Below, piece by piece: positions 19,468 to 23,882 of a DNA stretch of 64,000 nucleotides. Made by a program: the position numbers and the translations under genes. The DNA is from Halobellus sp. LT62 (GTDB taxonomy: Archaea > Halobacteriota > Halobacteria > Halobacteriales > Haloferacaceae): contig NZ_JAYEZO010000001.1 of the NCBI RefSeq assembly GCF_037031285.1, forward strand, positions 310,001 to 374,000, in the 5' to 3' direction. Position 1 is the stretch's first letter. Each line of letters begins with the position of its first letter. Below the pieces are notes generated by a model, which worked only from the letters and a program-made list of their open reading frames with translations, was not told the DNA's origin and ran no database searches.

Positions 19468-20205
19468 GTGAGCGTCTTTTCGCTGCTTCGCGCGCGAACG
19501 CCCGCGGACTTCGCCGACTGGTTCGAACCGGGCGGCGCGTACCTCCTGCGGGTCGCAGAGGGGATGGGACTGCACACCGGCGACCTCTCGGGCGTCATCG
19601 ACGAGGCCGAGACCGCGATGCGCGCGGATCGGACGGGGGCCGACGTCGCGCCTGCGGTGAACCGGCTGATCGCGGCGGATCTCTACGCCGACGCGGCCTT
19701 CGGCCTCCCGTTTCTCGAATGGACGCCCGTCTGGTACGAACTGCCGCTGACGCTCCCGACGGCGTACGCCGACTGGCGGCTCCGACGCGTCGCCGATCAG
19801 TACGCCGCAGCGATCGACTACCTCTCGGTGCCGCGGTTCAGCCGCCCACAGGACGTCGTCTCACGCGGTGCGCCGGCCGTCGAGTCGGTGTCGAGTTTCG
19901 CCGACCGGTTCGCCTTCGCCGATGCGATCTTGCACTTGGAGTGGTTCGACTACGTCGCGACCGAGGCCGGGATCGACGTGCCGCCGGGGCTGATCGAGGA
20001 GGCGCGGTCGCAGACGGTCGGCTACTACGTCGGCGAACTGGAGATGAACGACTTGGATCCCTCGGTGCGACGCCTCCAGTATCTGCTTTTCACCGACGAC
20101 GAGTGGGTCCGCGCCGTCGACGAGGCGTACGGACTCGGCAGTTCGCTCTTTTCGGTCTGGGAGCGCGTGTGTCGCCGCGAGCGCGACCGGTTCGGTGGTG
20201 TGTAA
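19468..20205 (+). CDS. Hypothetical protein (245 aa)
   Basis: Unrecognised soluble protein, mostly helical, with many aromatic residues (WTPVWYELPLTLPTAYADW). There are no cysteines, no membrane spans and no nucleotide-binding motif. GTG 19468 is set by the TATA box. It follows the MinD-like pair and is convergent with the terpene synthase-like gene, with 31 bp between their ends. Its function cannot be inferred. Confidence 0.7.
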   Translation: MSVFSLLRARTPADFADWFEPGGAYLLRVAEGMGLHTGDLSGVIDEAETAMRADRTGADVAPAVNRLIAADLYADAAFGLPFLEWTPVWYELPLTLPTAYADWRLRRVADQYAAAIDYLSVPRFSRPQDVVSRGAPAVESVSSFADRFAFADAILHLEWFDYVATEAGIDVPPGLIEEARSQTVGYYVGELEMNDLDPSVRRLQYLLFTDDEWVRAVDEAYGLGSSLFSVWERVCRRERDRFGGV

Positions 20206-20236: not shown

Positions 20237-21286
20237 CTACTTGAGACCGCGGCTCGCCAAGTGGTATCTGAGGACGTCTTTCGTCCCCGCGACGAACTGG
20301 TCCATATCGACGGCGTCGACGCGGTCGCTCAGAGAGACGAGCCGGCGATACTCCTCGTTCCACTCGTCGAGCAGTTCCCTCTCGATGTCGGCGGCGCGGA
20401 TCCGATCGATCGACTCCTCGACGTCGGCGACAGCCTCGTTTTCCCGACGGGTGAACTGGTCGGCGTCGACGAGGCCTCCTTCGAGGGCGGCGACGACGAC
20501 GCCGGAACTGACATCGCCCTCGCGTAGTTCGCGCTCCCACGTGCTGAGCCAGTTTCCGATTCGCGCCATCCGCTGTGCGGGGTCGACGACCGCGCGGAGC
20601 GCGTCGAGTTCGCCGGTGTAATCCACCGACGCGTGCATCAGATCGATATCGAGGTAACTGTTCATCCCCATATTGTGGACTTCGTAGTGGCGCAGGTCCG
20701 TCGCCGTCGCCAGATCCGGACGGTCGATGACGAGCGCGCTGTACTCTATCGCCGTGGTGATCTGCCGGACATCGAACCGAAAGAGCGGCGCGTACCGATC
20801 GAACGAGGGGCTCCGTTCGAGCCGATCGAGAAGCGTCTCCCACACCGACCGCGCGAACGCGACGTACGCCTCGTTTATCGCCCCGTCGACGGACTCATTG
20901 ACTGATGAATCCGGTCGCGGCGTCCCGACCGGTCCGCCGCCGATGCCGGAACGGACGAGCTCACAGACCACCTCGAACGTCTCGTAGTCGGACTGGCTCT
21001 CGAGAAGATCGTCGAGAACCGTGATAAAGAGAACGAGTATCGTCTTGTCCGTCGCGACCGTCTCGCGACGGTCGTTGTCGACGACGGGCACGGTGTTTTT
21101 CGGTGCGAGGCGGTGTACCCACCGCCACATAAACCACGGACGCGCGCCGTCGAGCGATTGGTACTCCGCGACGAGTTCGCGAAGGACCGGCGGCAGTTCG
21201 TGGTCGCGCACCGATTCGAGGAGAGCGACCGCACGGTCACCGTCGACGGATTCGGCGACACTCTGGGCGGGGTCTCTGAGTGTCAC
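20237..21286 (-). CDS. Terpene synthase-like protein (class I isoprenoid synthase fold, inferred)
   Basis: 349-residue helical protein carrying the residue pattern of class I terpene synthases. LDDLLE supplies an Asp-rich motif (Asp92, Asp93, Glu96). NWLSTWERE supplies an NxxxTxxxE metal triad (Asn245, Thr249, Glu253). Arg199 is exactly 46 residues before the triad, the position of the diphosphate-sensor Arg in bacterial enzymes, and an Arg-Tyr pair (340-341) occurs about 87 residues after it. Length fits bacterial sesqui/diterpene synthases. The start is GTG 21286. It would cyclise a prenyl diphosphate; substrate and product are unknown. It could be an inactive family member. Confidence 0.7.
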   Translation of the reverse strand: MTLRDPAQSVAESVDGDRAVALLESVRDHELPPVLRELVAEYQSLDGARPWFMWRWVHRLAPKNTVPVVDNDRRETVATDKTILVLFITVLDDLLESQSDYETFEVVCELVRSGIGGGPVGTPRPDSSVNESVDGAINEAYVAFARSVWETLLDRLERSPSFDRYAPLFRFDVRQITTAIEYSALVIDRPDLATATDLRHYEVHNMGMNSYLDIDLMHASVDYTGELDALRAVVDPAQRMARIGNWLSTWERELREGDVSSGVVVAALEGGLVDADQFTRRENEAVADVEESIDRIRAADIERELLDEWNEEYRRLVSLSDRVDAVDMDQFVAGTKDVLRYHLASRGLK

Positions 21287-21416: not shown

Positions 21417-21470
21417 GGAATACGAGGGAACCAACGGTATGACTGACCGACCGCTCTCCGGGGACCGGTG

Positions 21471-23882
21471 ATGAATTCGGAGACGAAGCAGGCCGGAGCC
21501 GGATCCGAGGTACCGACGGTTCCGAGCCCCGAACCGCCCGACAGTCCGAACGCGTGGTACGCCCCGGCGATCCGCGCGCAGTACGAGGTGACGCCCGGAG
21601 TGGTGACGACGATCGCGGACGTCAGCGACGGCGTCGGATTCTCTTATCACGTTCGAGAACCGGCAGTGGACGCGGCCGCAGAGCGCGCGTTGGCGTCGGT
21701 GACGGCGTACTTTTCGAGCGTCGAGATCCGGCGACCGCTGACCCGGCAGGGGGCCGCAGCGCACGCGGCGGCCGGAATGCCGGCAAAGTACGAGCGCGTG
21801 CTCGATCGGCTGTTGGACGTCGCACCGGCCGCCCGGCGTCGCATCGAGTACTACGCGATGTGCGAACTGCGACTGCTCGGTTCCGTGACGCCGATCGCGC
21901 TGGACGACCGCGTCGACGTCGTCGACGTCGAGGGCGAGACCGACGGCTCGCTCGTCGTGCACACCGAGAACTACGCGCCCGCGGTCACGGACTTTCGCGC
22001 GGACGCGGACTTCGCCACGCGGGTCGCGGGCGAGCGCCTCCGAGACTACACGGTCTCGTTCGCCGGGTTCGACGTGAGCGTGGTCGTCCATCGGGACCGG
22101 CTCCTCGGCGACGACCGCTTCGACGCCAAGTACGCCGTGCTCGAACCCGACCTGCTGCCGGGCGACGAGGAGCTGATCGCCGAGTGCAAAGAGCGGATCT
22201 GGGAGGCGAACGTCGAGGAGGTTGTCGACGACCGGACCGCGTTCATCCGCGAGCGGGCGCGTGGCTTTCTCTCGCGGCGACTCACCGCGCGCAACACCCG
22301 AGCGTGGTTGGAAGCGACCCGGTATCGCCTCCGCGGCGCGCTCTCGTCGTACGGCGTCGGCGTCCCGCCGGTCGACCGGCGCTACGCGCAGGCCCGCCTC
22401 GACGACCTCGTGTACTACGTCCTCAGAGATTACGTCGGCGAGGGCGTCCTCACGATTCCGATCCGCGATCCGCACCTCGAAGACATCGAGGCCAACCGGG
22501 TCGGCGAGCGGGTGAAAGTCGTTCCGCGCGCTGACGTCGTCCGCGCGGGCGAACGCGTCCCGACGAATCTCACCTTCGCCGATGAGACGAGCTTCGTCAA
22601 CGTGGTCACCCAACTCGCCGCCGCCGACGGCGTCGAACTCAGCGCGAGTCAGCCGTCGGCGAAGGTGAACCTCCGCCCGGAGGGCGTCGCGCCCGACGCC
22701 TCGGGCCACGGCGAGACCATCCGCTGCGCCGTCGCCCTGCCCGTCATCTCCGAGGACGGCCCGCACGTCTCGATCCGCAAGCAGGCGTCGTCGCCGCTGA
22801 CGCCGATCGACCTCGTCGAGTTCGGTTCGATTCCGACCGAACTGGTGACGCTCCTGTGGCTGCTGTACGAACACCACCGCGTCGTGCTGTTTTCGGGACC
22901 GACGGGCGCGGGCAAGACGACCCTGATGAACGCGCATATGCCGTTTATTCCCTACGACCACCGTCCGATCAGCATCGACGAGGGGTCCCGGGAGGTGTAT
23001 CTCCCCCACGAAACGGGCGTCTCGCTGACGACGCGCGAGCACGAGAACGAGTACAAACGGGTGTCGATGGCGGATCTGATGACCGAGGCCAACTACCTGA
23101 ACCCCGACGTCGAGGTGATCGCCGAGGTCAACACGCCCGAGTCGTTCGAAACCTTTGCAGAAGTGCTCAACACCGGCCACGGCGTCGTCGGCACGACGCA
23201 CGCCGAGGACGTCGAGACGCTCGTCAATCGGGTCGTCGAGCAGGGTCTCCCGGTCTACCTCCTGCGCGAACTCGATTTGGTCGTCTTCCCCCGGCGGGTC
23301 GACGGTGAGCGCTACGTCGGCTCCGCGGTCGAACTGCTCACCGAAGCAGAGTACGAGGAGCTTCCGGCGTCCGCGCGAACGGGCGTCGTCGAGAAGAACG
23401 GAACGACGCTGTACTACAACACGCTGCTGTGGCGCGAGACGGACGGGTCGTTCGCGATGGCGTACGATCACCCACAACTCGGTGGGGAACACGCCGCGAC
23501 CGAGGGGGAGACGCACCGGAGCGCCCTCCGCGTCTTCCACCGGATCGCCGCGGCGACGGACCGCGATGTCGACGACATCGAGCGGGAGTTCCGCCGCAAG
23601 CGCGGCTACGTCGAATACCTCCTCAGAGAGGGCGAACGCGACGTCGACCGGCTGTTCGGATTCCTCTCCGATCTTCGGACCGACGAGGCGGCGACCGTCG
23701 AGCGCGTTCGTCGGCAGCACGCCCACCGGGCAGATGGGGGCGTCGATCGCGACGGCGACACCGGAGCGGATAATGGAAACGACGACGCCGAAGCGGATAG
23801 CGAAAGCGACGACGCCGAAACAAATGGCGGAAACGAGTCTGCCGACGCGAACGACGAAACCGGCGGGAGCGCCGTCCGGTGA
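21471..23882 (+). CDS. pilB: Type IV pilus assembly ATPase PilB-like
   Basis: 803-residue motor of a type IV pilus-like system. The first 330 residues are a long haloarchaeal N-terminal region. The ATPase core holds GPTGAGKTT (residues 476-484), SIDEGSREVYLP (Asp box), VEVIAEVNTPESFETFAEVL (Walker B; the usual GEVRG is AEVNT) and NTGHGVVGTTHAED (His box). The C-terminal 50 residues are a repetitive, Asn/Asp/Glu-rich disordered tail. ATG 21471 is chosen; GTG 21468 is one codon upstream. First gene of a seven-gene operon; its stop overlaps the pilC start by 4 bp. Confidence 0.93.
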   Translation: MNSETKQAGAGSEVPTVPSPEPPDSPNAWYAPAIRAQYEVTPGVVTTIADVSDGVGFSYHVREPAVDAAAERALASVTAYFSSVEIRRPLTRQGAAAHAAAGMPAKYERVLDRLLDVAPAARRRIEYYAMCELRLLGSVTPIALDDRVDVVDVEGETDGSLVVHTENYAPAVTDFRADADFATRVAGERLRDYTVSFAGFDVSVVVHRDRLLGDDRFDAKYAVLEPDLLPGDEELIAECKERIWEANVEEVVDDRTAFIRERARGFLSRRLTARNTRAWLEATRYRLRGALSSYGVGVPPVDRRYAQARLDDLVYYVLRDYVGEGVLTIPIRDPHLEDIEANRVGERVKVVPRADVVRAGERVPTNLTFADETSFVNVVTQLAAADGVELSASQPSAKVNLRPEGVAPDASGHGETIRCAVALPVISEDGPHVSIRKQASSPLTPIDLVEFGSIPTELVTLLWLLYEHHRVVLFSGPTGAGKTTLMNAHMPFIPYDHRPISIDEGSREVYLPHETGVSLTTREHENEYKRVSMADLMTEANYLNPDVEVIAEVNTPESFETFAEVLNTGHGVVGTTHAEDVETLVNRVVEQGLPVYLLRELDLVVFPRRVDGERYVGSAVELLTEAEYEELPASARTGVVEKNGTTLYYNTLLWRETDGSFAMAYDHPQLGGEHAATEGETHRSALRVFHRIAAATDRDVDDIEREFRRKRGYVEYLLREGERDVDRLFGFLSDLRTDEAATVERVRRQHAHRADGGVDRDGDTGADNGNDDAEADSESDDAETNGGNESADANDETGGSAVR

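Follow-up and report, generated by a model that had tools for sequence, protein, structure and literature searches.

A divergent haloarchaeal family of putative class I terpene synthases with tryptophan in place of aspartate in the NSE-type triad

Plants, fungi and bacteria have well-described dedicated terpene cyclases. The terpene synthases of known structure that the haloarchaeal protein analysed here recognisably resembles in sequence are Sat1646 (7e4n/7e4o) and Stt4548 (7e4m), actinomycete class I diterpene synthases of the pimaradiene type (PMC9814573). Their sensor residue, Arg220, lies on helix H and not on helix G, and in Sat1646 the break of helix G carries the linker Asn182 and the effector Tyr183 (PMC9814573). 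The canonical class I triad, (N,D)Dxx(S,T)xxxE, has Asp as its second residue (PMC9814573).

The haloarchaeal gene lies in a window of 64,000 nucleotides from Halobellus sp. LT62 (Table 1), which has a 3.2 Mb genome and Halobellus rufus, captivus, rarus and clavatus as its nearest named relatives. The reading frame runs on the minus strand from a GTG start at 21286 to a stop codon at 20237–20239. Since the starts of the orthologues agree and dN/dS against Halobellus orthologues is about 0.32, we regard it as an intact gene of 349 codons under purifying selection.

Table 1. Positions of the putative synthase gene, its active-site features and its flanking genes in the window
Feature	Position	Strand	Remarks
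Unannotated 245-aa protein	19468..20205	+	convergent with the synthase gene
Terpene synthase-like gene, class I (putative)	20237..21286	-	349 aa, GTG start; assigned by fold and conservation
Arg340-Tyr341, RY pair	20264..20269	-	R340 27/85, Y341 46/85; not conserved family-wide
NWLSTWERE, NSE-type triad, N245-E253	20528..20554	-	on helix 224-255 (model)
Arg242, proposed diphosphate sensor	20561..20563	-	helix H, 3 residues before the triad
Asn205-Met206, proposed linker and effector	20669..20674	-	break between helices 195-206 and 208-217 (model)
Arg199, earlier-proposed sensor	20690..20692	-	Arg in 13/85; no conserved feature
DDLLE, DDxx(D/E) metal motif, D92-E96	20999..21013	-	C-terminal end of helix 71-96 (model)
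Type II/IV secretion (pilus/archaellum-type) ATPase	21468..23882	+	PF00437; divergent neighbour

The protein shares with Sat1646 and Stt4548 an R-x-(S/G)-N-x-x-x-(S/T)-x-x-R-(D/E)...GD block, an Arg three residues ahead of the triad on helix H in the sensor position, and, as proposed, linker and effector residues where helix G breaks. It differs from them in having Trp for the triad Asp and an extra loop of low model confidence around residues 113–136, and identity is only about 14%. By sequence, Sat1646 is the top PDB match (E 0.018), and the aligned block is the catalytic one. A profile search gave three matches with E below 1, two of which were Sat1646 (E 0.17) and Stt4548 (E 0.93), values that are marginal when taken alone. 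A search with terpene synthase profiles had been proposed in the initial annotation. PF19086 (Terpene_syn_C_2) matches 26 of 31 homologues with E not above 1; at least two of them exceed the gathering cut-off of 23.7 bits (L014 with 31.8, L013 with 27.1) and several others stay under it. The 349-aa protein scores 18.0 bits, and its match extends from the DDxxE region beyond the triad. PF03936 gives weak matches in four of the 31 members, and NCBIfam contains no model that matches the 349-aa protein.

An AlphaFold2 model, built with a 31-sequence alignment, is all-helical with pLDDT 90.2 and pTM 0.90. In VIA-align 2 the closest structures include bornyl diphosphate synthase (Z 21.8, rmsd 3.4, 288 residues aligned), Sat1646 (Z 21.7, rmsd 4.2, 268 aligned) and selinadiene synthase (Z 21.3, rmsd 3.3, 276 aligned). 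The comparison with selinadiene synthase had been suggested from the sequence, and it bears out the expected all-alpha fold. Among the matches listed, all 50 of 50 are terpene synthases, and the similarity spans the whole chain. Foldseek gave a weaker signal, with a best E of 1e-4 and modest TM-scores of 0.46–0.56. Plant class I synthases (bornyl diphosphate, limonene and taxadiene synthase; PF03936) share the alpha-domain fold with Z 21–22, and they also carry an Arg three residues ahead of the helix-H metal motif; the haloarchaeal protein, unlike them, has no beta domain. With the bacterial selinadiene, pentalenene and epi-isozizaene synthases it has the fold and the metal motifs in common, the selinadiene and epi-isozizaene enzymes reaching Z of about 21. 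The sensor Arg on helix G and the RY pair near the C-terminus, known from such canonical sesquiterpene cyclases, are not features of the present family. DDLLE and the triad are placed by the model on two separate long helices (71–96 and 224–255), as in terpene synthases, and from the matching of these helices the metal ligands would converge in one site.

The proposal of a class I terpene cyclase made in the initial annotation is strongly supported by the fold, the profile matches, the conservation of metal ligands and one operon with isoprenoid genes described below. Judging from sequence and model, we put the probability of a divergent class I terpene synthase as the gene product at about 0.85. 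The points that speak against a synthase are the Trp in the triad of all 85 homologues, the PF19086 score of 18.0, the modest TM-scores and the absence of prenyltransferase, P450 and transport genes next to the gene in Halobellus; the fold alone is no proof of activity. The same superfamily fold is common to prenyl diphosphate synthases and to squalene/phytoene synthase-type enzymes, which join isoprenoid units, and polyprenyl synthases do appear lower down the Foldseek list. That the protein belongs to one of these groups is nevertheless very improbable: neither PF00348 nor PF00494 matches the 349-aa protein at E up to 10 or the 31 homologues at E 1, the protein has a single aspartate-rich motif with an NSE-type triad and not two DDxxD motifs, and the Halobellus genome already holds two polyprenyl (prenyl diphosphate) synthases and two squalene/phytoene-type synthases.

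All residues that the initial annotation had quoted (D92, D93, E96, R199, N245, T249, E253 and R340-Y341) are present in the protein. It had counted them as four independent spacings that agree, and had expected the residues to be conserved among orthologues. In 85 homologues with pairwise identity of 20–97% (median 36%), the metal motifs are kept nearly without exception, but Arg is found at position 199, which lies 46 residues ahead of the triad, in only 13 and at position 340 in 27. In the first motif D93 and E/D96 are found in 85/85 and D92 in 81/85, with Asn in the remaining four. On helix H, N245 and E253 are found in 85/85 and T249 in 84/85, the one remaining sequence having Ser. Within the triad block W250 and R252 are also invariant, as are R49, W54, W56, D215, R231 and D258 elsewhere in the protein. 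On account of this conservation we take the metal motifs, and not the helix-G sensor and RY pair, as true features of the family. In the RY pair, Tyr341 is found in 46/85. For the diphosphate sensor, a role given earlier to Arg199, Arg242 on helix H is likely to be the better candidate: it is kept in 85/85 homologues and aligns with Arg220 of Sat1646. By analogy we propose that Asn205 and Met206, found in 75 and 78 of the 85 homologues, may be the counterparts of the linker Asn182 and the effector Tyr183 of Sat1646.

Single motifs of this kind are frequent by chance. Among 593 neighbouring proteins of at least 250 aa, DDxx[DE] alone was found in 249 (42%) and the triad [ND]xxx[ST]xxxE alone in 211 (36%); both at suitable spacing were found in 21 (3.5%), and all four marks jointly in none of the 593. 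Shuffled versions of the 349-aa sequence had the motif pair in 3% and all four marks in 0.015% of cases.

The Trp in the position of the triad Asp had been noticed before, and it is indeed present. It is not a private decay of the Halobellus gene, as Trp246 is the second triad residue in 85/85 homologues. This invariant Trp marks a divergent family; the canonical Asp is absent, and the family would therefore be a variant of the class I terpene synthases and not a canonical member. One could also read the replacement as a sign that a terpene synthase fold has been retired or repurposed, for example as a ligand-binding or regulatory protein, and sensor and regulator genes are in fact the commonest neighbours of the family in other haloarchaea. 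We find this improbable, given that DDxx(D/E) and the other three helix-H ligands are kept in the 85 homologues, with stricter conservation than the remainder of the protein shows, and that dN/dS is about 0.32. In particular, a recently retired cyclase, as the initial annotation had allowed, is unlikely because the active-site residues are invariant.

For the preferred reading, a working synthase, we infer metal binding, substrate, product and biological role. D92/D93/E96 together with N245/T249/E253 would hold three Mg2+, to which a linear prenyl diphosphate, in all likelihood GGPP (C20) or FPP (C15), would bind through its diphosphate group. Arg242 on helix H and Arg252 would touch the diphosphate, and the helix-G break at Asn205-Met206 may sense closure. 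Departure of the diphosphate would leave an allylic cation, from which cyclisation or quenching would yield a small hydrocarbon or alcohol. Archaeal membranes are built from GGPP. The same active site could also work without cyclisation, in which case loss of the diphosphate would yield an alcohol or alkene that is linear, of the geranyllinalool, nerolidol or isoprene type. Isoprene synthase is among the top fold matches alongside cyclases, and cyclising and non-cyclising class I synthases are indistinguishable by fold and motifs. Nothing argues directly against a non-cyclising enzyme, but most characterised relatives in sequence and fold cyclise; we consider it unlikely.

The nearest PDB sequence relatives point to a different substrate. 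Sat1646 and Stt4548 depend on a class II cyclase for their copalyl diphosphate, and a class I diterpene synthase of the same habit could be imagined in Halobellus. However, a search of the Halobellus genome with PF13243 (class II cyclase) found none, and in the genomes of relatives a clear PF13243 cyclase was found in 1/60, though 25/60 carry the synthase. Copalyl diphosphate is for this reason a highly unlikely substrate, and from the same absence the substrate is probably GGPP or FPP. Among the weak cyclase matches, the one that was read is a GH127-like protein. This 429-aa protein is encoded beside a plasmid-borne paralogue (L041) and was rejected as a class II partner, its best match being GH127 and the DxDD motif being absent.

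Members of the family were found in 120 of 391 sampled haloarchaeal genomes (31%) and in 39 of 86 genera, with two or three copies in some genomes. They also occur in Methanohalobium, in other non-haloarchaeal genomes of the same phylum, in one archaeal MAG and in one bacterial MAG. Those sampled from haloarchaea group together in a single clade (support 0.935). All six plasmid-borne haloarchaeal homologues found are annotated as hypothetical, and a search for viral or phage homologues of the synthase found none. If the family consists of synthases, about one third of the sampled haloarchaeal genomes, and methanogens, would make uncharacterised and possibly volatile terpenoids. It would also be a divergent set of enzymes whose hosts are adapted to salt and in which Trp replaces the Asp of other synthases. 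Judged by titles and abstract openings, the open-access papers searched gave no description of an archaeal or haloarchaeal terpene synthase; an earlier one is possible in subscription papers or preprints. What appears to be new here, from sequence and model, is an archaeal family with a different triad residue and a helix-H sensor, its fold and chemistry being expected to be unchanged.

A remote group of the same phylum outside the haloarchaea (L192–L197) keeps DDxxD and N-T-E, but the Arg three residues ahead of the triad is missing and the Trp position is taken by Thr or Ala; a Pfam search with one member gave no match. It is possibly a second archaeal synthase group. Some non-haloarchaeal homologues (L207, L186 and matches in G531 and G573) contain at least one in-frame stop (TAG, TAA, TGA), and they may be decayed copies or, for TAG, subject to read-through.

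In Halobellus the synthase gene stands alone between the pilus/archaellum-type ATPase gene and the gene of the 245-aa protein. We found no biosynthetic gene cluster around it, the neighbours being the pilus-type ATPase, a MinD-like ATPase and cobalamin genes, and no prenyltransferase, P450 or transport genes beside it. The nearest NCBIfam model for the ATPase is the FlaI family, with a score below the cut-off. The 245-aa protein is encoded in 12 of 17 genomes of the genus Halobellus (79–91% identity), has no Pfam or NCBIfam match, and its structure model (pLDDT 47) is too poor for use. One genome (G005) has no synthase, and there the ATPase and 245-aa genes are about 113 bases apart. As these flanks adjoin without it, the synthase gene has been gained or lost as a single unit. 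The 245-aa protein was considered as an obligate partner and rejected, as in that genome its gene stands beside the ATPase gene with no synthase between them.

Other genomes show two patterns of neighbourhood. In the bacterial MAG, tyrS, a polyprenyl synthase, an IPP isomerase (TIGR02150, 162.6 bits vs the cut-off of 105.8), the synthase homologue and a histidine kinase with seven transmembrane helices (7TM) follow each other on the same strand. After the second synthase copy in this MAG come a further 7TM histidine kinase and a gene resembling response regulators. The loci of this MAG (bacterium isolate USCA) are L206 3–5095 and L205 5379–8056; two synthase copies are unexpected in a 0.5 Mb genome.

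We compared the neighbours at 44 haloarchaeal loci that are mutually less than 60% identical, with genes called by a GC-position heuristic. Histidine kinases, PAS/GAF/BAT/HTH_10 regulators, HalOD1 proteins and FilR1-type regulators were counted as one sensor/regulator class. Such genes account for 20 of 88 immediate neighbours but for 17 of 391 genes at a distance of three to seven places (Fisher p 3e-7; with related loci and heuristic gene calls, this value overstates independence). Pfam counts for these neighbours go in the same direction, with PAS in 11/87 against 2/87 and FilR1 in 8/87 against at most 1/87. Because the gene calls are heuristic and the cluster models were built from the same loci, the enrichment is supportive and not final. 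PAS kinases are near the synthase at two loci of the methanogen phylum too.

These neighbours suggest, speculatively and on balance doubtfully, that a small terpenoid made by the family serves as a signal or ligand detected by the adjacent sensor proteins. The detectors would be the 7TM histidine kinases in the MAG and, in haloarchaea, the PAS/GAF/HTH_10 regulators, HalOD1 proteins, histidine kinases and FilR1-type regulators. The window gene has no sensor neighbour, and its receptor would therefore be elsewhere. If the idea is true, it would mean an archaeal terpene-based signalling or chemosensory system, and the link to sensor genes makes such a role directly testable.

Two loci (L043 7129–9451 and L101 6120–8418) have a compact same-strand run of DUF7344, synthase and a FilR1/HVO_A0261-type regulator; the DUF7344 gene was identified in L043, and in L101 the genes overlap by one base. 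A synthase gene closely related to the Methanohalobium copy has a gene for a DUF92 membrane protein in divergent orientation to it (L202 8160–9551). DUF92 includes phytyl-phosphate kinases, and an isoprenoid link of this gene is conceivable.
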